NCBI GenBank assembly: GCA_028554795.2
Contig: CM068832.1
Coordinates: 82,948,049-83,012,048, forward strand
Direction: 5' to 3'
DNA length: 64,000 nucleotides
Origin: Sinohyriopsis cumingii
Taxonomy: Eukaryota; Mollusca; Bivalvia; Unionida; Unionidae
Positions 14,575 through 34,923 of the stretch are shown one piece after another. Positions within the stretch are counted from its first letter, which is position 1. Every line of letters begins with the position of its first letter. The position numbers and the translations under genes were made by a program. The notes below the pieces were generated by a model. It was not told where the DNA came from, made no database searches, and worked only from the letters and a program-made list of their open reading frames with translations.

Positions 14575-14843
14575 AGTAGTGAATAGGGGCACCCTAGCCT
14601 CAATGGAAATTAGCATTACAGAGACCCCTGGGCAAACCTAGCCTCAATGGAAATTTAACATGGGAAAAAATCGTGGGCAAACCTAGCCTCAAGGGGAATT
14701 TAACATGGGAAAAAATCGTGGGCAACTCTAGCCTCAAGGGGAATTGAACATGGGATTTTTTTTTTAAATTTAAAAAAGGGGGTAGGCAATGGAAAGTCAT
14801 TCTCTTTTCGAGAAATATGGGTGGCCCTGAAAAGGGCCTTTGG
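14575..14843 (+). repeat. Left terminal inverted repeat of the Polinton
   Basis: It matches the reverse complement of 34,656-34,923 with about three substitutions and one T-run length difference. It contains three to four internal copies of a ~45-bp unit (CTAGCCTCAAGGGGAATTTA, then CATGGGAAAAAATCGTGGGC) and ends, inward, in a histone-type stem-loop signal. Internal repeats in a TIR may serve replication or packaging; that is inference. Confidence 0.95.
14823..14838 (-). terminator. Histone-type 3' stem-loop inside the left TIR
   Basis: On the minus strand it reads GGCCCT-TTTC-AGGGCC, preceded by CCAAA and followed by ACCCA. GAAAAGAGAA starts 13 nt after the stem. It lies 25 nt past the stop codon of the 14,864-15,349 gene. 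This matches the metazoan replication-dependent histone 3' end: SLBP-bound stem-loop plus a U7-complementary downstream element. Confidence 0.85.
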
Positions 14844-14863
14844 TTTTTTTTCTTCTTCTTCTT

Positions 14864-15349
14864 CTAACTCCTTAACTTCTTCCACCATCCTTTTATTTTT
14901 TCCATCATTCCTTTCTTCTTCTTTTCTGTTTCCGGCATCCAGTCCGGGTGACCCATGGCTCGGAACTTCTCTTGGATTTTCATCCAATTGTTGTTAAGCC
15001 GCTCAAACTCTTCCTTTTTCTTTTTGTTTTCCACATCTTTTCTTTCTTCCCTCCATTTCTCTTTAATCTTCTCTACTTCTTCCTCCATTACTTTTCTCAT
15101 CATATCTTCCCCTTTCTTCACCTTTTCCAACCCCCATTTTACATTCCTCCACTCTGTCCAGTACAATATTTTGTCTAGGAAGCACCGGACTTTGATGACA
15201 TGATCCAGTACTTCCTTCAAACTTCCCACTCTGAAGTAAGGTGGGTTAATGAAGCCTCTTGACTTATTGACTTCTTCTTCAATCATCCCTGCTATGATAT
15301 CCCTTGCTGTCTTTAGGCCTTGAACTTGACTGGTTACAAAGTCTTTCAT
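14864..15349 (-). CDS. Small charged coiled-coil protein, left-end cassette 1
   Basis: The 161-aa ORF has a plain ATG. The N-terminal third (about 1-75) looks globular, with AGMIEEEVNKSRGF and a VGSLKEVLDHVIKVRCFLDKI stretch. The rest is strongly Lys/Glu-rich and predicted to be coiled coil, ending in a Lys-rich tail with Trp residues. I recognise no family. It reads outward to the left end and its message ends in the TIR-borne histone stem-loop 25 nt after the stop. Two copies of the CGCGGACGTG motif lie 170-270 bp upstream. It resembles the two neighbouring cassette genes in charge and position, though not clearly in sequence. The frame is intact in this copy. Confidence 0.65.
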   Translation of the reverse strand: MKDFVTSQVQGLKTARDIIAGMIEEEVNKSRGFINPPYFRVGSLKEVLDHVIKVRCFLDKILYWTEWRNVKWGLEKVKKGEDMMRKVMEEEVEKIKEKWREERKDVENKKKKEEFERLNNNWMKIQEKFRAMGHPDWMPETEKKKKGMMEKIKGWWKKLRS

Positions 15350-15520
15350 ATCTCCATGCCTCTATTCCTATTCTATTCTTCCTACAACATATTCTACATC
15401 CATTATCCAAAAATAGATGTCTCTCAATAGATTAAAAAGAACTGATACTTGAGTCATTTTGTCTCAGTTATTCCTTAGAATGGTTCCAACATCAAACTTT
15501 GTGGGTTCTCATAGTGAAAG

Positions 15521-15616
15521 CGCGGACGTGAAGGAAAACATCCCCCTAAAACATAAAATTGATCTTACCTAGATCATGACCAAACAACGCGCGGACGTGA
15601 AGGAAAACATCCCCAC
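15521..15616 (-). promoter_or_regulatory. Paired CGCGGACGTG motif upstream of cassette 1
   Basis: Two copies of CGCGGACGTGAAGGAAAACATCCCC (plus-strand reading) start at 15,521 and 15,590, about 69 bp apart. They flank a segment containing AAATTGATCTTACCTAGATC. The same pair with the same spacer recurs at 16,283-16,375. Its place upstream of each cassette gene suggests a shared promoter element. Confidence 0.6.
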
Positions 15617-15855
15617 TTTTCTCATTTCATATAATAAAACCCAAACTATACTCTCCACATACGCTAAGAAACAATAAAGAAACTCATAATCTACTATTCA
15701 CACAAACTTACGTGAGCAGTTACAAATGCAATCACTAACACACAAACACATACACTCGCATTATTAAAAAAAGAGTTAGTGTTTATATTCACACTATTCT
15801 ACCTACACACACACATTGGCAAATGTATAGTTATTTCTTTTCTAGAGTATTGGGT

Positions 15856-15871
15856 AGCCCTGAAAAGGGCT
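15856..15871 (-). terminator. Histone-type 3' stem-loop of cassette 2
   Basis: On the minus strand it reads AGCCCT-TTTC-AGGGCT followed by ACCCA. GAAAAGAAA starts 13 nt after the stem. The first base pair is A-T instead of G-C, a compensated change. It lies 32 nt past the last stop of the broken cassette-2 gene. Confidence 0.8.
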
Positions 15872-15903
15872 GTTGGTTTTTTTTGAACTCCAGATGCACC
15901 TAT

Positions 15904-16212
15904 CTAATGATGGCACCTTCCTGGCCTGGCGCCACACACGCATCTTCTTCCCCAGTCTCCTTTCACCTTTCTTCTTGGGAGTGCAGAGGCGGGATGATTG
16001 GCTTCAGCGCCCCAATCCTCTGTCTCTGGTATCTTCTAAGTCATCCTCTCTCCTATTTTCTTTTCCTCCTCTTCCATCTCTCTTCTCTCCTCCTCTTCCT
16101 TCTTTATTCTTGCCTCTTCTACTATTGCTTCTGCGGATAGTTCATTTACTATGCGCCTGGCTTATTCCAGGTGCATTTGGAGTTCTAGCAGTTTCACAAT
16201 TCTGGTGTTCAT
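15904..16212 (-). pseudogene. Broken small Glu-rich coiled-coil gene, left-end cassette 2
   Basis: From an ATG at 16,212 one frame runs to a TAG at 15,906-15,904, but it is interrupted by an in-frame TAA (16,164-16,162) and a TAG (16,038-16,036). Between the two stops the reading is a strongly acidic coiled coil with runs of Glu and the words ARRIVNELSAEAIVEEA. The frame is otherwise unshifted for 102 codons. The upstream motif pair (16,283 onward) and the downstream stem-loop (15,871-15,856) are placed as in cassettes 1 and 3, which is the main reason to call a gene here. Function unknown. Confidence 0.55.
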
Positions 16213-16282
16213 TCTTCTGGTGGTGTTGATCAATCAACAAGGGTAGCTAGACTGCCGAGCGAGTTTCAATTTATACTGAAAG

Positions 16283-16375
16283 CGCGGACGTGATGGAAAA
16301 CATCCCCTAAAAACATAAAATTGATCTTACCTAGATCATGACCAAAAACAACAACGCGCGGACCTAAAAGAAACA
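16283..16375 (-). promoter_or_regulatory. Paired CGCGGAC motif upstream of cassette 2
   Basis: The first copy (16,283-16,307) is CGCGGACGTGATGGAAAACATCCCC. The second (from 16,357) is degenerate after CGCGGAC. The spacer again contains AAATTGATCTTACCTAGATC. The first copy lies about 70 bp upstream of the cassette-2 ATG. Confidence 0.55.
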
Positions 16376-16384
16376 CTCACTCAC

Positions 16385-16676
16385 TTTTTATGCTACCCAT
16401 TCCTATTCTAAAAAAGTTTCATTAATTACTTCAATAGACTATTCACATACGCAAAGAAATCCAATCTAACCCCAAATCTACACCTCAAACACCAAAAAAG
16501 ACATCATTTTAATCTACTATCCACACCAACGTACGTGAGCACTTACAAACACACAATCTTATACACAAACACATACCCTCACATTTATTTAAAAAAGAGT
16601 TAGTGTTTATATTCACACTACTCTACCTACACACATTGGCAAATTGATGGTTATTTCTTTTCTAGAGTATTGGGGT
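16385..16676. repeat. Second copy of the inter-cassette spacer (matches about 15,640-15,855)
   Basis: Shared words include TACGTGAGCA, CACAAACACATAC, GAGTTAGTGTTTATATTCAC and ACACATTGGCAAAT, in the same order as at 15,700-15,850. Promoter pair, spacer and stem-loop were therefore duplicated as a unit around different coding sequences. Confidence 0.65.
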
Positions 16677-16692
16677 AGCCCTGAAAAGGGCT
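16677..16692 (-). terminator. Histone-type 3' stem-loop of cassette 3
   Basis: On the minus strand it reads AGCCCT-TTTC-AGGGCT followed by ACCCC. GAAAAGAAA starts 14 nt after the stem. It lies 35 nt past the cassette-3 stop codon. Confidence 0.8.
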
Positions 16693-16727
16693 GTTTTTTT
16701 TGTTTTTTTGTTTGCTATGGCAATCTT

Positions 16728-17105
16728 TTAGTTTCTAAGTATGCGATATCCTCTGAGGATAGACTTTCTGGCGATAGGTCTGCTTCTTCGGAAAGAGAAG
16801 AAGAACTCTTTGGTGTCGATACGGCAATCGACAAAGCCTCTGTCAGGTTCAGGTTGTTGCTGCTGTTGTTGTTGTTGTTGTTGTTGTTGCTGTTGCTGCT
16901 GTTGCTGCTGTCTCTGAAGTCTGTACTTCTCTGTCCATTCTTCTTTCTCCCTGTTCATCTCTTCTCTGAAGAGCTCTTCTATCAGGTCTTCAGTAACTTT
17001 TAACATTCTCACATTCTCTATTTCTTCTGGCTTCGGTATCAGACTGTGTCTGACCCTATGCAAATTCACGTAGGCTTCGTTTAGCTTAGCTAGTTTGGAG
17101 CACAT
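16728..17105 (-). CDS. Small coiled-coil protein with poly-Gln tract, left-end cassette 3
   Basis: I start at the ATG at 17,105 (125 aa); the longer open frame upstream has no ATG. The N-terminal half reads as amphipathic helix (LIEELFREEMNREKEEWTEKY). A run of about 19 Gln follows (CAA/CAG codons at roughly 16,850-16,910), then a basic C-terminus with SFRRSRPIARKS. No family is recognised. The Gln run will be length-variable between copies. The CGCGGACGTG motif is about 65 bp upstream of the ATG and the histone-type stem-loop is 35 nt downstream of the stop, as in the sister cassettes. Confidence 0.6.
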   Translation of the reverse strand: MCSKLAKLNEAYVNLHRVRHSLIPKPEEIENVRMLKVTEDLIEELFREEMNREKEEWTEKYRLQRQQQQQQQQQQQQQQQQQQQPEPDRGFVDCRIDTKEFFFSFRRSRPIARKSILRGYRILRN

Positions 17106-17171
17106 CTTCGTAGGAGGATGAGTCGACAATGGATGGTTAGACTGGAAACAACCCGGTTCTTAAAGTCAAAG

Positions 17172-17197
17172 TGCGGACGTGAAGGAAAAGATCCCCC
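17172..17197 (-). promoter_or_regulatory. Single TGCGGACGTGAAGGAAAAGATCCCC motif upstream of cassette 3
   Basis: It differs by two bases from the motif upstream of cassettes 1 and 2 and lies about 65 bp upstream of the cassette-3 ATG. No TATA box is visible nearby. Confidence 0.55.
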
Positions 17198-17444
17198 ACA
17201 CGGTTTTCGAGCCGCAACGTTCAGTGAGTGACATGAGAGGGATAGTAAGAAATTAAAGAGAATGAATCAAACATTCTTATAGCCAAACAAACCACAAAGG
17301 CATTTTTTTCAAAACACAACATTTTTTATTCAAAAATCACTTAACACTAAACAACAACAACTCTAACATTTTTTAACAATAATCCAACATTATAACATCA
17401 AACATTTTTTTCTTCAAATGACAAACATTTTTTCAATTCACAGT
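17198..17444. other. A/C-rich non-coding gap between cassette genes and the virion genes
   Basis: It holds low-complexity A-rich sequence with repeated CAACA/TTTTTT words. Its only clear signal is the minus-strand AATAAA at 17,325-17,330. Confidence 0.5.
17325..17330 (-). promoter_or_regulatory. AATAAA poly(A) signal downstream of the protease gene
   Basis: The hexamer on the minus strand is 115-120 bases past the protease stop. It marks a conventional poly(A) end for the virion-gene transcript, in contrast to the stem-loop ends of the neighbouring cassettes. Confidence 0.55.
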
Positions 17445-18005
17445 CTACCTTAAACAGGGCTGACAACGTTGTGAATGAAATTGTGATTTCCACTGTTGGA
17501 AGTCATTAGGCCATTGATGGACACTACGTTTCCTAGCTTGAGACAAAAGATAAGCATAATGGTCACAAAACCATCGATCTACTTTCACATCGTTTCTAGA
17601 AGAAGAACGAGGATGAAAATGAGTCACTAAATGTTCTAAGGAATAGCCCAGGCTGCGATGATGCAGAAAATACACGCAATATTGTCCACACACCAAGGAA
17701 TCTGTGCCTTGTAATTTCACATTATTGAATCGGGTGGTTTGAGCATTTCTTCTCATAAAGTCGATGATATCGTCTTCCAAAGGGGGCAATCCGTACGAAT
17801 CGAAATATTCCACACATCCTTCTTGAGGAAAGTAAACGGCTACCCAGTGGGTTCCTGGGAGATGACTGTCGTCCGTGTTGATCACATAAGCTAGATGGTC
17901 TTGAGGTTTGCGATGAGGGAGTTCATCTTTAGCACAGACGACAGGATTCCAAGAAGCCGAATACGAACTGTGGTTCAAAAGGTAATAAAGTTGCCAGGTA
18001 TCCAT
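17445..18005 (-). CDS. Adenain-like cysteine protease (Polinton PRO)
   Basis: I start at MDTWQLYYLL (ATG at 18,005, 186 aa), which is where the family usually begins; the open frame extends further upstream only as overlap with the previous gene. The catalytic set is visible: His in GTHWVAVYF, Asp in EYFDSYG, and Cys in VCGQYCVYFLHHRS with the preceding Gln-like oxyanion region. Adenain-type (C5/Ulp1-like) proteases process capsid precursors during maturation in adenoviruses and are standard in Polintons. The gene is intact. It is the last of the virion-gene block before the AATAAA. Confidence 0.93.
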   Translation of the reverse strand: MDTWQLYYLLNHSSYSASWNPVVCAKDELPHRKPQDHLAYVINTDDSHLPGTHWVAVYFPQEGCVEYFDSYGLPPLEDDIIDFMRRNAQTTRFNNVKLQGTDSLVCGQYCVYFLHHRSLGYSLEHLVTHFHPRSSSRNDVKVDRWFCDHYAYLLSQARKRSVHQWPNDFQQWKSQFHSQRCQPCLR

Positions 18006-18048
18006 TTGTGTGTTGTTTTTTTCTTCTTCACAGGTAATAATAAGTCGT

Positions 18049-18507
18049 CTATTCGATCCTGACTTTTTGCTTGAAAATGTCTGACGAATAACCGTTTCTT
18101 CGTTTCGTCTCCTCACTCTGATTCAGGAGAGCTTCGATACGATCGATCTCTTGAGTGGTTAATGGTGGACAAGAATGTTCACGCAAGTCTTTATACCACT
18201 GGTGCAACACGTCTTCGTCCGAGATGAGACTCCAAGCTTCGTCCAGATACTCGTCCAATTTTTCTTCTTGACTCAGCATCAGGCATTTATCGTGTTGAAT
18301 TAGACTGGGATGATCGTTTTGACATCCATAGCAATTTTTCTTGATCAATTCCGTCATTTTTTCGACCAAGTGTTTGGCAAAACAGGAGACTAAATGGGCT
18401 TCTTGTTCTGGCCATCTTGACTTCATCATGATCACTTCTTCCACCATCTCCGCACATTCCATGTCTAAAGTTTCTCCACTAGGTAAAGAGGGATAACAGT
18501 CTTCCAT
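18049..18507 (-). CDS. Conserved Polinton zinc-binding-type protein between capsid and protease genes
   Basis: The 152-aa ORF is intact. It has a central Cys/His cluster, CYGCQNDHPSLIQHDKCL (about 59-76), which could bind one zinc ion, and an acidic helical N-terminal half. Small proteins with this C-x2-C...H...H...C pattern are a recurring component next to the capsid genes of invertebrate Polintons, with no established function. It starts 5 bp past the major capsid stop and ends 43 bp before the protease ATG, so it most likely belongs to the same late transcript. Confidence 0.7.
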   Translation of the reverse strand: MEDCYPSLPSGETLDMECAEMVEEVIMMKSRWPEQEAHLVSCFAKHLVEKMTELIKKNCYGCQNDHPSLIQHDKCLMLSQEEKLDEYLDEAWSLISDEDVLHQWYKDLREHSCPPLTTQEIDRIEALLNQSEETKRRNGYSSDIFKQKVRIE

Positions 18508-18512
18508 GGCTT

Positions 18513-19784
18513 CTAATAATCTAGAATGACTTCTCTCAAACTGTTGATTTCTATCGTATTATCAAATTCTGCATACAGGATGACGTTCACTGTGTTCCCT
18601 GCTTCCAGTGCACTCGCAAACTGAATTTCCACACGAATTTGGCCGGATTTTATAGGGTGGAAATGTCCCTCGTCGCTGCCTTGGTCTGGAGTGAAATCAA
18701 AAGCCCACAAAGCATAGCCTCCTACATAATCGTCGTACGTAATGCCGTGACTGGTGTTGGTTCGTAACTGTCCGGTAGCTTCGTACAGGGACAAGTACGA
18801 TCTCAAGTAATTGTTCTGGGCAAAGTTAGGCTCGAAAGGTCGGGTACACAAGGTCTTGCCATCACGACTGACTTCAATCTTGGACACTTTGAAATGTTGA
18901 AACTCAAAAGGATTTTCGTTGTAGGCTCCGTTGAAGGCTGAATTCTTGACGATACCAAGGATCAAACGTTTGGATAACTGTCCTTGGAACAGATGATCTT
19001 CGATCATGGATCGCTGTCCAGCAGGAATGGTGAACGTTTTCACTTCCACGCGTCGTATCGGATACTTGGCGGTCGTTCTACTCAACGTCTGACTGACGTC
19101 GTTTCCCACTTTGGGTAACACTTCCACACGTCGTACGTAGGGCCTGGCTTCTTGGATAACAGTTTTGTATTCGTTGTTATGGGCCATCAAATGGAAAGCA
19201 GCAGTGCTACGATTCAGTCTCAGGCGGATATCCATCCCGTTCAGCAAATACTTTTCTTGTAACCACATGTCCAAATGCAAACGATCCATCAGTTCTAAAC
19301 TTCGCCCTTGCAGAATTTTATTTCTACGTGTGTTAAACCCCACATTGTGAGGATTGTCATCTTCTGTCAGGGCTGTGTCGTTAAACGTGCCTACACCTGC
19401 CGTGTCAGGTTTCCATACCACGCAAGCATCCAGATGAGTATTTTTGGCTTCTTTCCCGTACGTCAAGAGATTTTCCAGGTAGGCACGATATGGGTAAGTA
19501 TCCATGCTGCTGCTGACCAGTTTGTTATTCAAGTACAAGTCCACTTCACTGAACAAGGAATGCATGAAATTGTTAACAGGAGCTACCCTATCATTGGCTC
19601 CAGGATTGCTGTTGTCCGTTTTGCTCACTTTGACTTTCAAATACAGGTAACTGCTATTTAGATCGATGTAATCTTCGGGCTGTCCTTTGATTTCAAACTC
19701 GATGGGAGCTGATTCCGTCAAAGAGAAGACGGGATGAAATTCCACCCATTGGGATTCTTGCATCGTCATCATGGTGGGTGGCAT
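18513..19784 (-). CDS. Major capsid protein (hexon-like, double jelly roll)
   Basis: The 423-aa ORF is intact. It matches the protein family annotated in many invertebrate genomes as F54H12.2-like, which is the Polinton major capsid protein. Recognisable stretches are PIEFEIKGQPEDYIDLNSSYL near the N-terminus, VNNFMHSLFSEVDLYLNNKLV (about 66-86), YPYRAYLENLLTYG, and a C-terminal block with GYALWAFDFTPDQ and a GQIRVEIQFASALE strand. Double jelly-roll proteins of this kind assemble pseudo-hexameric capsomers. That Polinton genes encode capsids is established by modelling; particle formation by this copy is inference. Confidence 0.9.
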   Translation of the reverse strand: MPPTMMTMQESQWVEFHPVFSLTESAPIEFEIKGQPEDYIDLNSSYLYLKVKVSKTDNSNPGANDRVAPVNNFMHSLFSEVDLYLNNKLVSSSMDTYPYRAYLENLLTYGKEAKNTHLDACVVWKPDTAGVGTFNDTALTEDDNPHNVGFNTRRNKILQGRSLELMDRLHLDMWLQEKYLLNGMDIRLRLNRSTAAFHLMAHNNEYKTVIQEARPYVRRVEVLPKVGNDVSQTLSRTTAKYPIRRVEVKTFTIPAGQRSMIEDHLFQGQLSKRLILGIVKNSAFNGAYNENPFEFQHFKVSKIEVSRDGKTLCTRPFEPNFAQNNYLRSYLSLYEATGQLRTNTSHGITYDDYVGGYALWAFDFTPDQGSDEGHFHPIKSGQIRVEIQFASALEAGNTVNVILYAEFDNTIEINSLREVILDY

Positions 19785-19857
19785 GGCAAACAGGTCCAGT
19801 TAGGTCTTGGAACAAGCGCAAGACTCCCGGTGCATCATTTTTCCGTGTCTCAATACT

Positions 19858-20274
19858 TTAATAATCGAAAACGTCTAAGTCTCGAACGGTTCTTCTTTTC
19901 TTGGCCTTTCTAGCTTGAAGTCTGGTGAAAGGGTGTTTTCTTCGTCGTCTCTTTCTGCCTTGTCCTTGCTGAATGCCTGATTCGGTAGCGTGCAGGGCAT
20001 TTATAGGTGTGTCTCGGCGGCCCAAAAGGTCTTTGCCCGTTTGCAGCAAGACATTTTTACCTGCCCTCATGAAGGCTTCTTTAGGGTTTTGTTTGTCGAT
20101 GATGACATTTTGGAGAAATTCTTTGCCTTGCGTCAGTGCCGCATCTTTCAAGGCGTGCAATCCGCGTGTCACCATTGGTTTCAAGACTGGGGCCACCGAA
20201 CGAAAGGCCGATTTTAACATATCTCCTAAACCGTGTCCTCGCTGTCGTGCAACCCCTCGGTACACTGGATACAT
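19858..20274 (-). CDS. Adenovirus pX/pVI-like core or membrane-active peptide precursor
   Basis: The intact 138-aa ORF has an N-terminal amphipathic segment, GHGLGDMLKSAFRSVAPVLK (about 13-32), a middle helical region and a very basic tail (KRRRRKHPFTRLQARKAKKRR). Gly-rich-start amphipathic helices followed by Arg/Lys-rich tails characterise pX/pVI-type proteins of adenoviruses and adintoviruses, which bind DNA in the core or help cross membranes. It lies between the penton and major capsid genes, and the short gap to 19,785 holds nothing else. It would be a substrate for the neighbouring protease; no cleavage site is claimed. Confidence 0.75.
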   Translation of the reverse strand: MYPVYRGVARQRGHGLGDMLKSAFRSVAPVLKPMVTRGLHALKDAALTQGKEFLQNVIIDKQNPKEAFMRAGKNVLLQTGKDLLGRRDTPINALHATESGIQQGQGRKRRRRKHPFTRLQARKAKKRRTVRDLDVFDY

Positions 20275-20277
20275 GAC

Positions 20278-21632: not shown

Positions 21633-21637
21633 GATGG

Positions 21638-22747
21638 TCACTTCTTTTTATAGTCGATGACTTGCGAAGCGTCGATCCAAGAATCAAAACTGGGTGGATA
21701 TCCTTTCCAACGTACTGTGACTTCTTTGACACGTCGTTTGCCCACTTTACGGGTTCTGCGTTCGAGAATGCTTTCGATATCGTACACGTCGTCTTCTTTT
21801 TTGGTGACACGTTGTAACTCGGGCAAATAAAACGTTCCTTTGAGCACTTCTCCGTTCATGTCTTCCAATTTATAGACGGCAGGATGACGGCCATGCACTC
21901 GTCCAGTGACACGAAACAATTCGGTCGTCCAGTTGGGTAAGTAACCTTTGTCGAAAGTGCGTTTGGTTTTGCCAATGCGCACCCAGTCTCCTACGGCCAA
22001 GTCTCCACTTTTCTTGGGGACAGCCCTCGTCGGGGACGTACCAAACAATCGCTCAAGCACCAACACTTCGTTGTCGGGAGTCACGTCTTGCGGGGCACGT
22101 CCGATGCTTCGATGGTAAGATTGGTTGTACGCTTGCACCAGGTGCGGTAAGATGTCGATGTACTTCAGAGTGTGGTGATGCGTAAAATATTTCCACATGC
22201 GTTCTTTCAATGTGCGTTGAAAACGTTCCACGATGCTGGCTTTGGTTTCGGGATTCTCGGTGGTAAAAAAATGAATGTCACGTTTCTTTAATTCTTTTTG
22301 GAAAGCTTGGTTCAGAAATTCGGTGCCTTTGTCCGTTTGCCATCGAAGAGGGTGACGACCGCTTTGTTTCAACACCCGTTGCAGGGCTCGCACTAACTCG
22401 CTGCTCGATTTGGAAGTCAAGGGCACGACCCAGGCAAATTTGGAAAAGACGTCGATGACACAAAACAAATATTTGTAGCCACGATTGTAGCTGGCCAAAT
22501 GAGAGACATCGGCTAAATCGGCTTGCCATTGATGATCGATGCCTTCCACTCGGGTGCGACTTCTGGCAAACTTGCGTCGAATGGGTTTGTGTAAAGTGTA
22601 GGTAGCTTGTTCTTGTAACCATCGTTGCACTTGAGGTAAACGGAGACTTTTCAGTCGAGTTTTGGCAGCACGATACAATTTTTGATCTCCTGCGTAACCT
22701 GCAGGATGGGAGGGATCGTAGTAAATGCTGGCTAAGACTTTTTCCAT
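21638..22747 (-). CDS. Retroviral-type integrase with C-terminal chromodomain
   Basis: The 369-aa ORF is intact. The N-terminal domain starts with ASIYYDPSHPAGYAG. The catalytic core has D in WQADLADVSHL, D in WQTDKGTEFLNQAF and E in ASIVERFQRTLKERMW, the DDE triad of rve-family integrases. After an SH3-like region (GDWVRIGKTKRTFDKGYLPNW), a chromodomain ends the protein: YDIESILERR and VRWKGYPPSFDSWI. It joins TIR ends to target DNA with a 6-bp stagger. The chromodomain could steer insertion to marked chromatin, consistent with finding the element inside a satellite. It is the best-preserved mobility gene of the element. Confidence 0.95.
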   Translation of the reverse strand: MEKVLASIYYDPSHPAGYAGDQKLYRAAKTRLKSLRLPQVQRWLQEQATYTLHKPIRRKFARSRTRVEGIDHQWQADLADVSHLASYNRGYKYLFCVIDVFSKFAWVVPLTSKSSSELVRALQRVLKQSGRHPLRWQTDKGTEFLNQAFQKELKKRDIHFFTTENPETKASIVERFQRTLKERMWKYFTHHHTLKYIDILPHLVQAYNQSYHRSIGRAPQDVTPDNEVLVLERLFGTSPTRAVPKKSGDLAVGDWVRIGKTKRTFDKGYLPNWTTELFRVTGRVHGRHPAVYKLEDMNGEVLKGTFYLPELQRVTKKEDDVYDIESILERRTRKVGKRRVKEVTVRWKGYPPSFDSWIDASQVIDYKKK

Positions 22748-22768
22748 TTTTTTGTGTTGGTTGGTGTG

Positions 22769-23409: not shown

Positions 23410-23458
23410 GGGGTTGTCAGGGGTCAATTCTGAGATCTTGGGACTTCCGAGGGCCTTT

Positions 23459-23844: not shown

Positions 23845-23903
23845 CTTTGAGTCTTCAGGAGCACCAAAAACACTGATACCCCCGACTTGGTCACAGGCCT
23901 TTT

Positions 23904-24801: not shown

Positions 24802-25545
24802 TTATGTGGAGTGAAATGAAGTCGAGGACGGAGACGTGTACAGGACAGGCCCTCCGTCTTGGCACCAGTGGTGAAACAAGTGGGTACGAAATCGCAAATC
24901 CTCGGGGGTCGTAGGTTTCAAATCGACGAGTAAATATACGTGTGGAGTTTGAGTGGCATCGTCGTACGCCTGAGTCAGCCAAGGCGTTCCTAACTGTTTG
25001 GCTAAGACTTGCACTTGCGATTTATCTCGAGGGCTTTTAAACAAGACCAGGTAATGCGCATTGAGACTGATGGTGCGATGGGCTTTACTTTGTTGAAACA
25101 AATTTTGGGTGATGTAAACGACACTGGCATTACAGTGATGCCCTTTGCGCGTGAACCACAGTTTAATTTCTTCTTCGTCTTCTCCTAACATGTCGTCGAA
25201 AATGACCAAATGGGTTTGACGGGAGTCAGAGACGATGCCGTCGTCTTCTTTAGGAATGCCTTCCACAAACACGATGGAATCGCCTTGACTTTCTCGCAAG
25301 AGGCTGTACGCCGATTGCCACTCTTTGTAACACCACACGATCCGCTGAGGGGGTCGATCGATCAAATGATGTTTATGTTCGATCAAACGTTTGACGAATT
25401 CGGTTTTGCCTGAACCGCTAGGTCCGGCAATGAGCATGTTAAAGGGATGGCGAAGATACAAAGCCTCCCAACTGGCACGATCTAAGTGTTCGTCGATGAC
25501 TTTGACAGTAGAGGAAGAGGGAGCAGAGACAGCAGAGGTAGCCAT
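24802..25545 (-). CDS. FtsK/HerA-type DNA-packaging ATPase (A32-like)
   Basis: The intact 247-aa ORF has Walker A at AGPSGSGKTEF (about 39-49), Walker B at HLVIFDDML (about 113-121) and a polar sensor stretch VVYITQNLFQQSK. The length and order match Polinton genome-packaging ATPases, which pump element DNA into the preformed capsid. A TATATAAAC box on the minus strand at 25,599-25,591 lies about 48 bp upstream of the ATG, so this gene starts its own transcript. Its stop is 54 bp before the ATG of the basic core-protein gene. Confidence 0.92.
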   Translation of the reverse strand: MATSAVSAPSSSTVKVIDEHLDRASWEALYLRHPFNMLIAGPSGSGKTEFVKRLIEHKHHLIDRPPQRIVWCYKEWQSAYSLLRESQGDSIVFVEGIPKEDDGIVSDSRQTHLVIFDDMLGEDEEEIKLWFTRKGHHCNASVVYITQNLFQQSKAHRTISLNAHYLVLFKSPRDKSQVQVLAKQLGTPWLTQAYDDATQTPHVYLLVDLKPTTPEDLRFRTHLFHHWCQDGGPVLYTSPSSTSFHST

Positions 25546-27049: not shown

Positions 27050-27061
27050 GAATAGGTCATA

Positions 27062-27517: not shown

Positions 27518-27539
27518 GAACAGATTATGGTAAGTTACT

Positions 27540-28177
27540 TCAATGTCTCGGTCCCACTAAGGGTAAGTAATGACAATTCGGTGACCATCGAGCATGTTCT
27601 ACGTAGGCCGAATCTTGCGGTTCCCAGTGGTGAAGTGACACACCGCAACTGAAGCACTTGACTTTATCTCCTTCGCCCAAGTAGAACAATCCGGCTCTGG
27701 CTAATTCTTCGGGGGTCGGGCCTCCCAGATACTTAGGCCATTTTCCTTTGAACGATTGAAGACGATTTTCAAAGTCGCAGTATTCCGACAAACGCACAGA
27801 AAACGAATATTCGTCTTTCACAGGTTCGTTTCGATGACTGTTGGGTGACATGAACAGGAGTTTACTCAGGGCTGGATGACATCCGTAGTGGGGTAGACGT
27901 GAAAGTGAACATTCCCCTTTAAAACGAAACCCAGTAAAATGTCCAAGAGGACGAGCGGCATCACTTTCGCATCCCTCAGGTTTGACCCGCACAGCATCAC
28001 TTTCCATAATGGGGTAGTGACACTAAAGTTCCCACGATGCTTTACGGCATCGCTCAGGTCACAACGTACAGCATCGTACCCATCGCAAGGCTCACAATCG
28101 CATTCCACTTCCGAAGCCTCACACTTGAATTGTGCCTTTCTAAACAACTTGTTTTGTGTTTCTCTGAAAGTATTCAT
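27540..28177 (-). CDS. BIR-domain (inhibitor-of-apoptosis-like) protein 1
   Basis: The BIR domain is complete near the C-terminus: RLQSFKGKWP, then LARAGLFYLGEGDKVKCFSC, with zinc ligands in the exact spacing C-x2-C-x16-H-x6-C and the conserved WEPQDS. No RING follows. Two readings of the start are possible. An ATG at 27,851 gives a 103-aa protein made mostly of the BIR. Alternatively, a TATAAAAAG box at 28,238-28,230 fits the ATG at 28,177, whose Cys-rich frame needs a frame change near 28,010 to reach the BIR frame. BIR proteins block caspases or signal in death pathways; baculoviruses use them against host apoptosis. Confidence 0.85.
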
Positions 28178-28240
28178 CTTGTTCGCTCGGTCTTGGTAGT
28201 CACAATGAACTATCGATCTTGACCATAGCCCCTTTTTATA

Positions 28241-28693
28241 CTAGTCGCAATGCAGTCTCCAGCTTGTACATCTTTCCATTTTTAGTTTTTTATGTCTTGT
28301 TTTGGAAGGTACCGTCTCTAAGGTACCGTCAACATTGTACCGTAGTGTGATGGGTGGAAAGGCCATAGAAAGGTAAGGGCAGTGCGGAGACCATCGAGTA
28401 TGTTCCAGAATAGCTGAATCTTTATAGATACATAGATCCATTCGTAACTTCAGTCCGCAAGCGAAACACTGTACCTCGTATCCCAATCCTGACTCAGGTC
28501 CCAAGTAGACAAATCCTGTTCTAGCTAAAACATGCGAAGAAGGTGATCCTTCCCTATCCGTAGGCCATTTCTGAAACGTGTCCAATCGACGGCCACAATC
28601 ACAATAGTCAGGTAAGAAGACTGGAAAATGGTAGGATTTGAACTTGGAGTTCTCATCTGGTTTCTCACTCGATTCTTGCTGTGGCGAAGTCAT
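28241..28693 (-). CDS. BIR-domain protein 2 (divergent)
   Basis: The intact 150-aa ORF carries a second BIR: RRLDTFQKWP, LARTGFVYLGP, then VQCFACGLKL and EHTRWSPHCPYL. The zinc spacing is C-x2-C-x18-H-x6-C, two residues longer than the canonical domain, and the usual Trp after the second Cys is absent. A basic 25-residue tail follows. A TATAAAAC box at 28,735-28,728 overlaps the last codons of PolB, so it has its own promoter. Its low similarity to BIR 1 suggests an old duplication or separate capture, not a recent tandem copy. Confidence 0.85.
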   Translation of the reverse strand: MTSPQQESSEKPDENSKFKSYHFPVFLPDYCDCGRRLDTFQKWPTDREGSPSSHVLARTGFVYLGPESGLGYEVQCFACGLKLRMDLCIYKDSAILEHTRWSPHCPYLSMAFPPITLRYNVDGTLETVPSKTRHKKLKMERCTSWRLHCD

Positions 28694-28716
28694 CTTTCTG
28701 GTGGGTGACTATCCTC

Positions 28717-31700
28717 TTACAACCAATGTTTTATACCAACGTGTCCATACGGCAAAGTAAAGTGGTTGGGTAGTAGCACTCGCTTCTGGTACACGATTTG
28801 ATAGACTTTTTCCAAGGGTCGACTGAAGATGTGATGAGTGGGTAAACGTACAATCTTGTTCGGTTGGTAGGTGGTCACTTTAAAGTTTCCATCCTCTCCC
28901 GATTGCAAGGCTTCTTTCAATACCCCAAAGTTGACCACACGACTGGTACGATAATTCAGAGTCAGTCCTTTCACTTTGCACGTCGTGTGCACTTCTCCTT
29001 GTGGGTCCCGGTATTCGTAGCCGTAATTTTTGGGACCGCCACTGACGAAACTTAGAATCTTGTCGTCGGGATGCTCGTCTGTCCAGGCTCCTAAACGGTC
29101 TCCTTCGATGTCAGGGTGCTGTTGACTCGGGTGATGGATGTAAATGCAACTGTCCGTGTCAAAGTACAGGACGCGTTCCCTTAACAGTTCTAAAGCTTCG
29201 TACAATTTTAAGCGAGCATGAGCTGTCACGTAAGCCGCAATGATGACATTTCCAAAAGGGTCGTCTTGTACAAAGTCCAGATCTTCTTCGTAATTGACCA
29301 AGATCAAATCCTCGCGAACGACGTCCACGTGTTTCATGTATTTGGTTTTGTCGTGAATCATCTGGAAGTAGCGGGAAGGTTCTGTCAAATATTCCGTCTT
29401 GGGTAAACACGGTCGTTGTGCCAATTTACCCCACAAGCAATTTAACATCACTTTGGCAAACGATCGCCTGCCTTCGTTTTTCTCTATGTGGTCTAAAGTG
29501 ATGCCTTCTTGTTCATAGTATTTCTCTTTGAATTGTATTTGGTCTTCGGGAGTGTGACACCATAACGGATAGCCGCTGGCTTCTTGTTTCAGTTTCAAAA
29601 AGGCATCCACGTAGTCGGCGAAAATGCCTTTCTGACTGGGATCACCCTTGTGGTATTGTTGTGTCTTGGGAAAGTGGCAAATTTCGTACACTTCTAACAG
29701 TTGGTATCCCATGTCCAGAGCTTTGAACAATTCTACGCTGACCCAGGTTCCCGTCAAGGCACGTTCTTCCTGGGTGTGCTGACAAGGTTGGTCTTGGTTG
29801 CACGTTTCGGCACAAGTACGGCACAAGGGAAACATCAGTTTGCCTTGACAATGGTGAGGTAAGACGGGATGGTATAGGTTCGTGGGAGGCAAAACTTTGC
29901 ACTTGATCAAGCCTTCGTATTGTCGAATGTTTTTCAGGTCGATGTGTTCCGTCAACAATTGCGGGTGCCCTACAGGAAAGCGACAATATTTGCACACGTA
30001 GGGATACAGCGAACACACGTCCAAGTATTTGATTTCTTCTCCTTTCTCTTCGTCGGCTTGGTACAGCAAACAGGTGGCATTGGTCCTTCCTCCGTACAAA
30101 CTATCCCTCGGGTTCAGCGGGTCCATGAACTGGTAACTTTCCACGAGGCGTTTAATCTCGGGATCGGTTTTCATACGGTGATCGTACTCGTGTTCCCACA
30201 TTTCCACCACTTGGTATCCTTGCTGTTCTAACTTTAGGCGTCGCTGACAAGTGTCCTGGTACAAGTCTTCCATGGTTCGTTGCAAAAACTGATTTTTAGT
30301 GCTACGATCAGGGTAACAGACCGGACATCCGTGAAATAAGAAACCGTTAAACTCGTACACGATCTTTGGGTTTTCTAAGTCCCAGCCATCTACCGAATAC
30401 GTTCCGATGGTCTTTTCGCCTCCTCCGTTGCGGGCATGCTGAATCCATTTGTCTTCCTTGCCGCACAAGTAATGTAACCAGCGTAGGGCTTTGACCGAGT
30501 ATTGACGTTTGACAAAGTTGGCCGTTTGAGGGCTGATGACAGCCACGGTGTTTTCAGGCATGAATCGTTGTCGATACACTAAGGAACACGCTTTGGCAAT
30601 GGTGCAAGCTTCTTTCAAAGGATCGACCCCTCCGTGTTCCATGAACAGTTCTCGAAATTTTCCACAGCAACGCCGTAAAATGTCCACGTCGGAACGACAA
30701 TACTTTAGCATTTCTTCCTGAAAGTCGAAGGGGTCCGAGGCGTGAGCCTGGTACCAAGCGTAGAAAGCTTCTCGTTGTTCGGTACGCATGTTGTCGGGGT
30801 CGTAATAGTGAGCCACAGGTAAATGGGGTAGAACGGCGTGTTGATTGGCTTCCTTATTGAAAAAATGTGGAAAGTACCCTTTAGCCATTTCTGTCATTCC
30901 AAACGTTTTAGGCATTCGGCTCAAAGGCATGGCCAAATAGCTCATATAATCTTTAAACTGTACTTGTCCCACTTGCATGAAAATGATTTTGGCTCCGTTC
31001 AAAGTCACTTAAGGACACTCTGTGCCTTGTTCCGTATAGTACCTCAAAAGAAACTGTCCATCGTATCCGGAGAAATTGTGAGCCATCACCGTGGCATGAC
31101 GATGACAATCTCCGTAACGGTCGATGTCCTCTTGGCTCCACGTCTTGTCGACGGGGTCTAAGACCCATTGTGCAAAATCGGCTAACGTGTTCAATCCCCG
31201 AAAGATTTTTTCACGCCCTCCAGGAATCTTGCTGCAGTGAGGGCAATGACTGAAGATAGGTTCCTGAATGCACTTCTCGCACGCTCGATGAGCCACGCAG
31301 AAATTAGGAATGTGAATACCGGTCTCTTGCATGCATTCGAAATCGAAAAAGATGAAATTGCCTTTCTTCTTGTGACTGTCCTCTTTCTCTGGTGGGGGTT
31401 GGTATTTTTGCACGTAGCATTGGTGTTCCAAGTCCACGATGTGGCGACAAATGTGACATTTTTTCTTTCCTCGACATACGTGTGCCTTGGCAGTATTGGT
31501 ACATAGGCCTTGTCCACAGGTAGGGCACAGTCTCAGCAGTTGACAAGCACATTTCTTCTGTGAACCTTGTGTTTTCAAATGTTGTTGGTAACAGGCAGGG
31601 CTGACAAACGTGCGCAGACAAGTTGAACAAGGCACTGGTTCCTCGCTCAGACAGGGTGGAGAGGCCAAACATCCTGAGCATTTCCATCCACAATGCTTGT

Positions 31701-32754
31701 GTTGCTCTCGGTTATTATAACCATAATCACATTTCTCACAGTAATAACTGTATCCCAGGAATGCAGTGATACTGGTAATAGTATCGAAATGGTCATCGTG
31801 ATGATAAACATGAATGTATTTTCCGTCCTTAAAATCTTGGCCTCGAAACAACAGAGGCCCGTGCATTTCTTGAGGGTGCACTTTCAAGGTGTAGCGTGGA
31901 GCTAGGGCATCTTGCAATTTTTGCATCTCAGGAATGCCACAGGGTGTGTCTTTGGACAGTCCGGCTTGTTGTAACAGGAGTTCTGCTTCGTTTCGTTGTT
32001 TGGCTCGGTCCGATTGTCGAATAGTTTTCCAGGCTCTTTTCCATTCTGCCGTGTCGTTCTTGTTGGCATAGGTTCGTCCAACCACGATGGCTCGGGCTAA
32101 ACACATCAGGTCATGAGGGTTGTTAATTCGGACGAGACTTGTTTTGGTGTTGCGAAGGTCGTCCACCAATAAGACCTTTTTGCGTCCAGTCCCTTGAGGA
32201 GGAGAGACGTGGGTCATGTCCAGTGTGGCTTTACCATCGGTGATGTCAAACTGATCATTAGATTGTTGCACGTGTTGAATCTTGTCCATGACTTTGGAAG
32301 CGGTCAATTCTGCAGGGGTGCTAAACTCGATCCAAACAGGGGATTTCAAACCGTCGTGTTGTATGGAAAGTCTCAAGCGATCGTCTTCTTTGGGTTGACA
32401 TTGTCGCTTGAGTGCGGTGACCAAAGAATCCCACACCCCAGTGATGAACACTTCTGCTTTCTCTAACGGTACTTCAGCCTTGAAATCTTTAAACTTCACT
32501 GTGTATTTGTAAGCCGTGGTTCTAAATTTTCTAGAGGATCGCTTTTCCGTCTCTCGAATGGAATAGTATTTTTCAGGGTTGACTAAGGGTGGTGAACTTG
32601 GTTTAGAGGGTTCGGATTCTGGTTCACTCATGTCCTCTTCAAAATCACTGGCATGAATTTGTGCCAAGATTTCAGCCCTGGTACGAGGCGATAGATCACG
32701 TTTCTGCCTCTTACTTTCTTCTTCTTTCTTCTCAAATGAATAGGATCGTTTCAT
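28717..32754 (-). pseudogene. Polinton protein-primed family-B DNA polymerase, one in-frame stop
   Basis: One frame runs 1,345 codons from the ATG at 32,754, interrupted by a single TAA at 31,011-31,009. The N-terminal part holds a Cys/His cluster (about 31,330-31,700), ExoI FFDFECMQ (about 31,340) and ExoII HNFSGYDGQFLL (about 31,060). After the stop come an ExoIII-type YCRSDVDIL (about 30,700), motif A DVCSLYP (about 30,020), the LNCLWGKLA motif B region (about 29,430) and motif C YFDTDSC (about 29,150). All polymerase and exonuclease aspartates are visible. The TAA falls between ExoII and ExoIII, leaving neither half complete. It replicates the linear element from a protein primer in intact relatives. 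Confidence 0.93.
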
Positions 32755-32800
32755 CTTGAGTGAAAAACGTCAAATGACTCAAGTTCAATCACCATAGACT

Positions 32801-32835
32801 AATTTATAGTCATGGCAGACCAGCGTATATAAAAG
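32801..32835. promoter_or_regulatory. Divergent promoter between PolB and the zinc-knuckle gene
   Basis: A minus-strand TATAAATT (32,808-32,801) lies 47 bp upstream of the PolB ATG. A plus-strand TATATAAAAG (32,826-32,835) lies 54 bp upstream of the zinc-knuckle ATG. Only 17 bp separate the two boxes. Confidence 0.7.
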
Positions 32836-32888
32836 GGTGTGTGTCTTGTCCTTTCACTATTCATTTCACTCTCAAGCTGAGCACAACG

Positions 32889-33339
32889 ATGGAAGAAACT
32901 AGCCAAATCGAACGCTTCGTCAGAGCTTTGCGAGGAGTCATTAGAAAATTCTCTTCAGACCAGCCGACGGACTACTCTCCTTCCTTTCGAGATAAAAGTC
33001 AAGATACAAGCTATATCTGTCAGAAGAAAGGGCATTGGTCTTCAGAGTGTCCAGACCGTCAAAAAAGAAAAAAAAACAGGGGCTAAAAAAGACAAAAGTC
33101 AAGATACCTGTTATTATTGTCAAGAAAAAGGACATTGGTCTCCAGATTGCCCAAAAAAGAAACAAGAGGAGTCAGAAGAAAAGAGGAATTCTTCAGAGGA
33201 AGAGAGGGATTCTTCAGAGGAAGAAAGCAGACAGGTGAAGAAAAAGAAACAGGAGAAGAAAAGAAGAAGGGAAGAAAGTGAGGAGGAAGAAGAGGACAAG
33301 CCTGTGAGGGTGAAGAAATTCAAAAAACAGAGAGACTAA
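32889..33339 (+). pseudogene. Two-zinc-knuckle basic protein, frame break in an A-run
   Basis: The ATG at 32,889 opens a frame with a first CCHC-like knuckle, CQKKGHWSSEC, whose outer Cys is missing (Ser in its place). That frame ends at 33,086. After a run of nine A (about 33,068-33,076) the next frame carries a complete knuckle, CYYCQEKGHWSPDC (about 33,108-33,149), then an acidic/basic Ser-Glu-Lys-rich tail to the stop at 33,337-33,339. The two knuckles and their flanks are a tandem duplication. CCHC knuckles bind single-stranded nucleic acid. A one-base length difference in the A-run explains the break, so assembly error or slippage is as likely as decay. Confidence 0.6.
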
Positions 33340-33422
33340 ACAAGGAGACAGAAGAAGTCAATGAACCTTTTTTAAAGTGTTCTGTTGTGAATTGTGAATT
33401 GGATTGTAACAATGGATAAAAG

Positions 33423-33428
33423 AATAAA
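33423..33428 (+). promoter_or_regulatory. AATAAA poly(A) signal of the zinc-knuckle gene
   Basis: It is 84 bases past the stop at 33,339, in AT-rich sequence. This plus-strand transcript has no histone-type stem-loop. Confidence 0.55.
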
Positions 33429-33577
33429 TTAATTATATAAGGTAAGTGTCTTTGAGTTTTGATTTTAAGATAAGAACGTACACTCACGCACTCATATAAA
33501 CGTACTATAGGGGTAAAATGGTTTTTTTTTTGAGTTATTGGCAATTGAAATTGTATTTCTTTTCAAGAGACGTGGGT

Positions 33578-33593
33578 GGCCCTGAAAAGGGCC
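33578..33593 (-). terminator. Histone-type 3' stem-loop of the right-end minus-strand gene
   Basis: On the minus strand it reads GGCCCT-TTTC-AGGGCC followed by ACCCA. GAAAAGAAA starts 13 nt after the stem. It lies 21 nt past the stop at 33,615. It is outside the TIR, so it is not merely a TIR feature. Confidence 0.85.
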
Positions 33594-33614
33594 TTTTTTG
33601 GTGTAGGGATGAGT

Positions 33615-34186
33615 TTAAGCAACCAACTTTAACTGCCTTAAGCCTTTGCCACGGCCAAGGCCTACTTCTGGACTGCGTACTGTTGATGATGATGATTGGG
33701 TTGAAATCACTAAGGGTGGCACGGTAGTCTTAGTCACAGGGTTGACGTGTTTAGCTCGGGAAGGTCGTATTCTCTTCGGTCGTAATAAAGAAGTCTGATA
33801 CATTTGTTTCAGACTTCTTAACTCCGCTAAAATGTCCAACAGTACCGTGACCGTTTGATTTTCACCTCTTGTTTATTTGCCGCTACTTCTTCTTGTTGCT
33901 GTTGTTTTTTTCTTACCTCTTCTTCTTGCTGCTGTTGCTGTAGGAGAAAAGCTTGTTCCGCTTCCTTTTGTCGTTGTATAAATTTCTCCAATTCTTCTTT
34001 CTGTCTCTGTCTAAAATTCTCCACTTGCGGTAATGAAGAAGGTAACGAAGGTTCCGGAACAAATTCTTGCGAGGTAAGAAAATCCACAAAATCTCAATTT
34101 ACCTCTTCTGAAAGTAAGTCCGGGTTCCCTTGGGCGGTCTCCACTGCTGGTGCACCCCAATGGATCGTTTTCTGAGTTTCCGTCAT
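33615..34186 (-). pseudogene. Right-end coiled-coil Gln/Glu-rich protein, broken
   Basis: The ATG at 34,186 starts MTETQKTIHWGAPAVE, but an in-frame TGA stands at 34,096-34,094. The same frame continues with a Gln/Glu coiled coil (RQRQKEELEKFIQRQKEAEQ, then two runs of Gln) to 33,827. The C-terminal homology moves frame near 33,840 and reads DILAELRSLKQMYQ and a basic tail to 33,615. A CTATATAG box at 34,240-34,233 serves as TATA. The 3' end carries a histone-type stem-loop, as in the left-end cassettes, and the Gln-rich coiled-coil character resembles cassette 3. Function unknown. Confidence 0.6.
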
Positions 34187-34405
34187 GTTGAATCACTGTC
34201 GCATAGATTGACTGCACACAGGCGCTAGCGAATCTATATAGACCACGTGACGTCACCGACTGCTCTCTTCGGATTGGATGCGGGCTGACTGAATTTTGTA
34301 ACGCGTGTTCGGATTGGTGAATGAACTCAATCCGTTTCAATCCTTCCTCTACCTATAAATAAGCGCAGTTCACTGCATTGATTCACCTGTTCTCGTCGCT
34401 TCAAG
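34187..34405. promoter_or_regulatory. Bidirectional promoter at the right end of the Polinton
   Basis: A minus-directed CTATATAG (34,233-34,240) and a plus-directed TATAAATA (34,354-34,361) bracket the interval. Between them are an overlapping E-box and CRE (CACGTG at 34,244-34,249, TGACGTCA at 34,248-34,255) and two inverted CCAAT boxes (GGATTGG near 34,272 and 34,311). TATA plus CCAAT resembles histone promoters. Confidence 0.6.
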
Positions 34406-34636
34406 ATGTGGACCACAGTCGAATCATCCACCCTTGTGTCTTCCATGATGTTTAGGACGGACATGCTCATGTATGTCCGGTCCAAGTGGACCGTCGTCGA
34501 CAAGTCAGACACCAGTCTGTGGATACGAAGAGTGTATGTAGAAAGACAAGGTTGCCTCAAGAGGACACTGATTTATGGCCCTCGAGTAAGACGCAGCTTG
34601 AGGACAAGAAGATGCCGCAGATGCCCTTTATGTTAA
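34406..34636 (+). CDS. Small basic protein of unknown function, right-end outward gene
   Basis: The 76-aa ORF has a TATAAATA box 45 bp upstream of its ATG. It begins with a Ser/Thr-rich stretch and ends in a basic Cys-containing tail (RVRRSLRTRRCRRCPLC). No family is recognised. It is one of only two plus-strand genes in the element and reads outward to the right end. A histone-type stem-loop within the right TIR begins 24 nt past the stop, the spacing normal for histone mRNAs. That 3' signal and the clean promoter are the main support for a real gene. Confidence 0.55.
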   Translation: MWTTVESSTLVSSMMFRTDMLMYVRSKWTVVDKSDTSLWIRRVYVERQGCLKRTLIYGPRVRRSLRTRRCRRCPLC

Positions 34637-34655
34637 TGGATACATTAACATAAAC

Positions 34656-34923
34656 CCAAAGGCCCTTTTCAGGGCCACCCATATTTCTCGAAAAGAGAAT
34701 GACTTTCCATTGCCTACCCCCTTTTTTAAATTTAAAAAAAAATCCCATGTTCAATTGCCCTTGAGGCTAGAGTTGCCCACGATTTTTTCCCATGTTAAAT
34801 TCCCCTTGAGGCTAGGTTTGCCCACGATTTTTTCCCATGTTAAATTTCCATTGAGGCTAGGTTTGCCCAGGGGTCTCTGTAATGCGAATTTCCATTGAGG
34901 CTAGGTTGCCCCTATTCACTACT
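34656..34923 (-). repeat. Right terminal inverted repeat of the Polinton
   Basis: It is the inverse of 14,575-14,843 with about four differences. It contains the same ~45-bp internal repeats. The TIR sequence starts exactly at the stem-loop 5' flank (CCAAA). Confidence 0.95.
34661..34676 (+). terminator. Histone-type 3' stem-loop inside the right TIR
   Basis: It reads GGCCCTTTTCAGGGCC, preceded by CCAAA and followed by ACCCA. GAAAAGAGAA starts 13 nt after the stem. It is on the plus strand, 24 nt past the 34,406-34,636 stop. Confidence 0.85.

Follow-up and report, generated by a model that had tools for sequence, protein, structure and literature searches.

The 64,000-nucleotide stretch of Sinohyriopsis cumingii contig CM068832.1 analysed here (the window) contains a Polinton element whose end-located genes are followed by stem-loops of the kind found at the 3' ends of replication-dependent histone mRNAs (Table 1). 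That the element is a Polinton, as a sequence-only reading of the window had proposed, is borne out by above-cut-off Pfam matches for the family B DNA polymerase, the integrase and the A32-like packaging ATPase, by terminal inverted repeats, and by the 6-bp target site duplication TACGCT. Two further members of the proposed gene set are held less firmly, the protease being a below-cut-off Pfam match only and the capsid protein being assigned from its relatives. Named relatives of the capsid among the matches listed (120 of 508 homologous proteins; 24 were aligned with the query) include bivalve proteins (Mercenaria, Ostrea, Crassostrea, Saccostrea) and one gastropod protein (Littorina). No histone family was found among the 20 open reading frames (ORFs) of the element scanned with Pfam, and none of the stem-loop end genes matches a Pfam family above cut-off: the cassette-bearing genes are not histone genes, and the claim made here concerns their 3' ends. 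The site of insertion is surrounded by a 59-bp minisatellite (window positions 14200-14574 and 34924-35200).

Table 1. Features of the Polinton and its stem-loop cassettes, in window coordinates (scores are those of Rfam model RF00032).
Feature	Positions	Strand	Remarks
Polinton element	14575..34923	.	20,349 bp; terminal inverted repeats, target duplication, gene set
Target site duplication TACGCT (6 bp), left copy	14569..14574	.	
Target site duplication TACGCT, right copy	34924-34929		
Left terminal inverted repeat	14575..14847	.	holds 14838 stem-loop cassette; arms 97-99% complementary
Right terminal inverted repeat	34652..34923	.	holds 34661 stem-loop cassette
ACCCA and purine core CTCGAAAAGAGAAT, left-end gene	14798..14822	-	like a histone downstream element
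Stem-loop GGCCCTTTTCAGGGCC, left-end gene	14823..14838	-	then ACCCA; 40.8 bits, match 14798-14843(-)
Left-end gene, 161 aa	14864..15349	-	open; no Pfam match
24-bp motif, two copies, upstream of left-end gene	15522..15614	-	sense strand GGGGATGTTTTCCTTCACGTCCGC
Stem-loop AGCCCTTTTCAGGGCT, 15.9-kb gene	15856..15871	-	then ACCCA, CTAGAAAAGAAATA, TTGCC; 31.7 bits, E 3.3e-5, match 15831-15876(-)
24-bp motif GGGGATGTTTTCCTTCACGTCCGC, upstream of 15.9-kb gene	16284..16307	-	1 mismatch
Stem-loop AGCCCTTTTCAGGGCT, 125-aa gene	16677..16692	-	then ACCCC, CTAGAAAAGAAATA, TTGCC; 29.3 bits, E 2.7e-4, match 16653-16697(-)
125-aa gene (16.7-kb gene)	16728..17105	-	polyglutamine stretch; Pfam matches sub-threshold only
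24-bp motif GGGGATGTTTTCCTTCACGTCCGC, upstream of 125-aa gene	17173..17196	-	1 mismatch
Adenovirus-type (C5-like) protease candidate	17445..18005	-	Pfam E 0.021, under cut-off
Capsid protein	18513..19784	-	named from relatives and place; without curated model match
rve integrase with chromodomain	21638..22747	-	Pfam above cut-off
A32-like packaging ATPase	24802..25545	-	Pfam above cut-off
Two BIR (inhibitor of apoptosis) domain genes	27540-28007, 28241-28693	-	Pfam
Family B DNA polymerase ORF (DNA_pol_B_2)	28717..30978	-	Pfam above cut-off
Stem-loop GGCCCTTTTCAGGGCC, 33.6-kb gene	33578..33593	-	then ACCCA, CTTGAAAAGAAATA, TTGCC; 37.8 bits, match 33554-33598(-)
Open 3' part of 33.6-kb gene	33615..33803	-	frame broken upstream in window copy
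Right-end gene, 76 aa	34406..34636	+	Arg/Cys-rich C terminus; no Pfam match; two homologues, P0121 and P0122
Stem-loop GGCCCTTTTCAGGGCC, right-end gene	34661..34676	+	then ACCCA, CTCGAAAAGAGAAT; 40.8 bits, match 34656-34701(+)

Stem-loop cassettes behind the end genes

Five 16-nt stem-loops are present where the sequence-only reading had placed them, on the minus strand at 14838, 15871, 16692 and 33593 and on the plus strand at 34661. All five stand exclusively on the sense strand behind stop codons, at distances of 25, 32 (counted by hand), 35, 21 and 24 nt, respectively. The stem is GGCCCT-TTTC-AGGGCC at 14838, 33593 and 34661, and AGCCCT-TTTC-AGGGCT at 15871 and 16692. It is followed by ACCCA at four sites and by ACCCC at 16692, and at all five a purine core, GAAAAGA, begins 13-14 nt downstream of the stem. 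The earlier wording of five genes holds for five gene 3' ends, but two of the genes are broken in the window copy, the 15.9-kb gene by in-frame stops and the 33.6-kb gene by a frame break and a stop; the broken genes are open in other copies, for example with 103 aa (L101), 120 aa (L102) and 183 aa (L038).

The Rfam search that had been suggested as a check (Histone3, RF00032; gathering score 34 bits, E values obtained by searching the entire window with every Rfam model) returned 14838, 34661 and 33593 above the gathering score and 15871 and 16692 below it. The latter two are treated as no more than diverged versions of that cassette. Complete cassettes, consisting of stem, start of the tail and purine core, number five in the window and none in 200 dinucleotide shuffles; chance hairpins are ruled out by this result and by the absence of genome matches to a reversed pattern (see below).

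The five sites represent about three sequence lineages. Since the sites at 14838 and 34661 belong to the terminal inverted repeats, they are a single sequence present twice; those at 15871 and 16692 look like duplicates because they have common flanking repeats of 51 and 86 nt. Both of the compensated first base pairs (A-T for G-C) that had been pointed out at the latter two sites are present, but they probably record one event. All of the cassettes have in common a 57-nt block, with 63-82% identity to the left one, which makes a single ancestral sequence within the element probable.

Three of the stem-loop genes also have an upstream 24-bp motif, GGGGATGTTTTCCTTCACGTCCGC, in four copies. With up to three mismatches allowed, the 64 kb contain no further copy; the motif is found in 19 of 120 loci as well and is missing from the right-end gene pair. 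The motif is a possible shared promoter element, and because these three genes have it in common along with the 3' cassette, they may be co-regulated at both ends.

Comparison with host histone genes and recurrence in the genome

The host genome (2.9 Gb) contains tandem histone repeats of about 8.3 kb, of which one (L072) encodes H3, H4, H2B, H2A and H1, each with a histone stem-loop behind it (RF00032, 35.0-39.4 bits). The core histone genes H3, H4, H2B and H2A end in GGCCCTTTTNAGGGCC, and H1, identified by its translation, ends in GGTCCTTTTCAGGACC (GGTCCT/AGGACC). The host purine core sits 14-15 nt past the stem, and its sequence, CTAGAAAAGA, is identical in four of the five host genes and two of the five element sites; the remaining element sites have CTCGAAAAGA or CTTGAAAAGA, and host H2A has CCCGAAAAGG. 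The element cassettes thus possess, past the stem, a purine-rich histone downstream element (HDE) as in host histone genes. All five host histone genes (L072 909-4100 and 6735) have a third block, YTGYY, at +18 to +21, counted from the purine core; for H4 the distance was counted by hand from the second, CTAG-flanked core and the script had used the first. All five element sites have this block as TTGCC at +19, against a background of 0.15 at +15 to +30 in the non-genic parts of the same host repeat. We know of no name for the third block, which may either extend the pairing with U7 or serve another factor.

The element's 3' ends and those of the host histone genes thus agree in three distinct blocks. 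They also have the general features of the metazoan replication-dependent histone 3' end: a 6-bp stem, a 4-nt loop, ACCCA, an AAAAGA core and the usual spacing. Unlike such 3' ends, they stand behind virus-like, non-histone genes of a mobile element; unlike the five host genes read, which continue with ACA, ATA or ACT after the stem, the element continues with ACCC, and its first pair is A-U at two of the five sites. Because of the difference in the tail, the element cassettes are not recent duplicates of those host sequences. Direct copying of a present-day host histone untranslated region (UTR) was considered and is disfavoured, as the five host genes read have other sequence in the flanks and in place of the ACCC.

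It could be argued that the stem-loop works at the DNA level, or serves packaging or transposition as part of the terminal repeats, and does not act in RNA, given that two of the sites are at the inner edge of those repeats. However, the other three are found away from the repeats, every one of the five follows a stop codon in the sense orientation, and a DNA signal would have no need of downstream blocks that match host histone genes; this explanation appears highly improbable.

Genome-wide, the pattern GCCCTTTTCAGGGCYACCN{5,14}GAAAAGA has 15,868 + 16,278 = 32,146 exact matches, and the reversed pattern has none. When TTGCC is also required 12-14 nt further on, 14,986 + 15,394 = 30,380 matches (94.5%) remain; these keep the third block at a nearly fixed spacing, although the bases in between vary in the places listed. 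The pattern demands ACC and so misses variants such as the AGCC copies, and the five histone genes of L072 cannot match it because they have no ACC past the stem. Of the gap lengths permitted (5-14), the 100 listed matches to the first pattern show only 10 or 11. Ninety-three of these places lie within 18 kb of another, and 20 same-strand pairs are 0.7-1.0 kb apart, as in the window. At up to five cassettes per element, the estimate is at least some 6,400 element equivalents. All 99 scored capsid copies (from 29,396 first-look candidates) have at least 93% identity and contain no stop, so the amplification looks at least partly recent. Such numbers (more than 30,000 cassettes versus at least 150 scored host histone-fold matches of 662 candidates) would suit a decoy whose main effect is to tie up host SLBP and the U7 small nuclear ribonucleoprotein (snRNP) and thereby disturb histone supply. 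The cassettes stand at coding genes, however, three of them with a common upstream motif, which fits expression better; as the main effect, a decoy is barely credible.

The sequence-only reading was to be given up if the Histone3 matches fell below threshold or if related Polintons had no such stem-loops. Neither check refuted it: three of the five sites exceed the threshold (two do not), and related copies do carry stem-loops. Of the RF00032 places in the genome, 75 were scored and 50 were read, namely the best 30 and 20 chosen from the other 45; the best 30 were picked by stem-loop and cannot prove its frequency. None of the histone motifs tried was found in the 3 kb of sequence taken at each of these 30 places. 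Matches to the window end genes were obtained by tblastn at 23 of the 30 with default settings and at 29 with composition adjustment off, six of them weak (26-33% identity); the remaining place (L030) has no end-gene match but has a 3' end nearly that of L028. Annotators should be warned that the 30 best matches to a histone 3'-end model in this genome lie at apparent mobile-element genes (29 of the 30 by protein match, including the six weak ones).

To reduce this bias, presence of the stem-loop was counted at the 50 loci on non-anchor genes, meaning end genes other than the search anchor, in elements that were still caught through another stem-loop of their own. Outside the window, a sense-strand stem region lies behind the last codons of all 34 such genes: 20 of 20 copies of the 33.6-kb gene, 12 of 12 of the right-end gene and two of two of the left-end gene. 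All six base pairs are kept in all 12 copies of the right-end gene (13 of 13 with the window) and in 16 of 21 copies of the 33.6-kb gene including that of the window, the other five having lost one pair; one of the two left-end copies has lost a pair. The count excludes nine rows obtained with the 125-aa query, including two in the window: beyond its own window match, the query returned glutamine-rich matches (22-29% identical) to the upstream part of the 33.6-kb gene, and one such row, in L010, has no stem-loop within 260 nt. Among copies chosen by the capsid gene alone, a sample of three of the 99 listed, all three have stem-loops, eight in total and one with a lost pair; the left end of one of them (L100) falls outside its stretch.

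Conservation in 13 copies of the right-end gene is 100% over the 16 columns of the stem-loop versus 84% over the last 60 coding nucleotides; it is 88% for ACCCA, 96% for the purine core, 97% for the TTGCC region and 69% for the next 30 nt. For the 33.6-kb gene, the purine core is 98.1% conserved and the downstream sequence 79%. A covariation test is given little weight: it used 19 hand-picked sequences, including host genes and L004 (a distant relative described below), several of which had passed a pairing filter. In its 18 distinct rows, 108 of 108 cells pair and two of six pairs show two-sided change. With rows so picked and partly pre-filtered, shuffles reached the observed score in 0 of 500 cases, the number of two-sided pairs in 34 of 500 and the number of pair types in 447 of 500; two of the five shuffle controls were not passed.

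A capsid alignment search found eight Polinton stretches (L001-L008) in bacterial metagenome-assembled genomes (MAGs), which we take to be contamination by eukaryotic DNA. In L004, whose capsid is 30% identical to that of the window, an ORF with a C2H2-like zinc finger, read from the translation, lies near the contig end (573-842, minus strand). The stem-loop GGCCCTTATCAGGGCC follows 28 nt past its stop, then ACCCC and AAAAAAGAGAT (RF00032, 35.8 bits). No terminal repeats were found in the six MAG stretches tested, L004 among them, so the ends of these elements may be missing. The histone-type 3' end may be an old trait, as this one distant case suggests.

The cassettes might be functionless fossils, a piece of an old histone 3' UTR having once joined the terminal repeats and been copied to other genes. 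The common 57-nt block, with its probable single ancestor inside the element, fits such a history, as does the stem of the 33.6-kb gene, which is scarcely more conserved than the coding end. Yet the blocks are retained while intervening bases change, cassettes outside the terminal repeats are retained too, the stem region is found in the sense orientation behind all 34 of the end genes counted above, and L004 has the same arrangement at a different gene. We judge a functionless origin quite improbable.

Predicted processing of the end-gene transcripts

The preferred reading is that the accessory genes at the element's ends are followed by copies of the signal with which the host ends its replication-dependent histone mRNAs, made up of an SLBP-type stem-loop, an ACCC cleavage region, a purine HDE for U7 snRNP, and the third host-matching block. 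The available text of PMC7026596 states that ACCCA precedes the cleavage site, that the purine core is AAAGAG, and that about 15 nt of the U7 5' end pair with the HDE. Because the cassettes have each of the cis-acting parts named there, the transcripts are probably cut by the host histone machinery. The Rfam consensus for U7, which is not the host's own U7, contains CUCUUUU, the complement of AAAAGAG in the terminal-repeat cassette. The host SLBP/U7/CPSF73 machinery would cut a few bases past the stem, and the messages would stay non-polyadenylated; expression of the accessory genes (likely an early or accessory set) would be tied to S phase, when the element can replicate, while the capsid-side block has an ordinary AATAAA after its last gene. 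Such a signal is present 114 nt past the stop of the protease candidate. Judged from sequence, it is very probable that the end-gene transcripts are cut by this machinery, and likely that the messages have non-polyadenylated ends. Cleavage itself we infer from knowledge of the histone pathway, from which coupling to S phase would follow more weakly.

The sequence-only reading had also stated that the stem-loops stand in place of poly(A) signals. Four of the five sense 3' ends indeed lack AATAAA or ATTAAA within 300 nt, but 15 of 18 other genes tested lack them likewise, so this absence is not special to the stem-loop genes.

Several observations weigh against processing by the histone pathway. 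An AATAAA lies 138 nt downstream of the stop codon of the 125-aa gene, and the cassettes at 15871 and 16692, as noted, score under the Rfam threshold. The tail is AGCC instead of ACCC in six of the 12 non-anchor right-end genes outside the window, and for the left-end gene it is AGCC in L101 and CCC in L102. The purine region is lost or altered at one site in L010 and L011, and the stem of the 33.6-kb gene is barely more conserved than its coding end (97.3% vs 96.3%). In L004 the third block is missing, and L001-L003 and L005-L008 show no signal by RF00032 gathering score or stem scan, in stretches that may not include the element ends. No U7 small nuclear RNA was found in the host genome, the best hit to the Rfam model reaching 29.3 bits, under the cut-off; the pattern TCTTTTN{0,6}AATTTGTCTAG gave 16 sites versus 23 for a control, and none of the 16 was judged to have a U7-like hairpin. 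The RNA-binding domain of SLBP (PF15247) had no match in a six-frame search, which cannot show absence.

SLBP binding might instead aid translation or localisation of messages that are also polyadenylated, with U7-dependent cleavage not the main route. The AATAAA of the 125-aa gene points this way, and dual 3'-end use is reported for human H2A.X in the accessible part of PMC7807067. The purine core and the third block, however, lie beyond the expected cut and would be purposeless in an uncut message, yet they recur genome-wide; we consider this possibility unlikely.

Cleavage by the histone machinery would be a simple way of linking viral gene expression to S phase without any need for polyadenylation, and the tens of thousands of natural cassettes, variants among them, would form a test system for the requirements of SLBP and U7. 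A broader proposal is that the histone 3'-end pathway has long served Polintons of animals as a cell-cycle switch, with promoter motif and 3' end together making accessory genes S-phase-only and non-polyadenylated, and that most histone-type 3' ends of this genome now belong to the element (more than 30,000 versus the host tandem clusters), enough to load host SLBP and U7. This proposal is tentative, one that may well hold but that we stop just short of favouring.

Known systems and neighbouring features

Histone-type 3' ends are generally taken as a mark of replication-dependent histone genes, and the cassettes suggest that the element borrows machinery so far known for histones. The element resembles other animal Polintons, Mavericks and adintoviruses in the genes it carries, in having terminal inverted repeats and in its target duplication of 6 bp. 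Unlike the element, none of these, nor any other mobile element, is described as having a histone-type 3' end among the literature matches listed, which largely do not cover subscription papers and include the available portions of PMC11071296, PMC7786107, PMC1794435 and PMC7026596. The same Rfam family has been matched in an RNA virus, SARS-CoV-2, inside the nsp3 coding region, at 14.7 bits, far under the gathering score of 34 (PMC7786107, available portion); in that portion a purine-rich region appears only as general background, unlike in the element cassettes. The 'Histoid' genes of adomaviruses and tailtomaviruses likewise represent histone-linked borrowing by animal DNA viruses, but there a histone-like protein is borrowed, whereas in the element it is an mRNA 3'-end signal on non-histone genes (PMC11071296, available portion).

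No relatives were found in IMG/VR by capsid protein, capsid alignment or ATPase, and one stem-loop pattern gave no matches there. A looser pattern returned six contigs with GGCCCTTATCAGGACC, which were set aside as chance matches, having neither an RF00032 match above threshold nor a purine core.

Other virus-like and repetitive sequences are present in the window outside the element. A second A32-like ATPase ORF (54358-55023, minus strand) and an ORF similar to AAA_19/AAA_30 helicases (57122-58498, minus strand) are perhaps the remains of another virus-like element. A reverse transcriptase fragment (10950-11756, plus strand) scores slightly under the Pfam cut-off. A 1,699-aa open frame (44879-49978, plus strand) has no Pfam match; it is probably repetitive, since its antisense frame has many weak Pfam matches of the coiled-coil sort.

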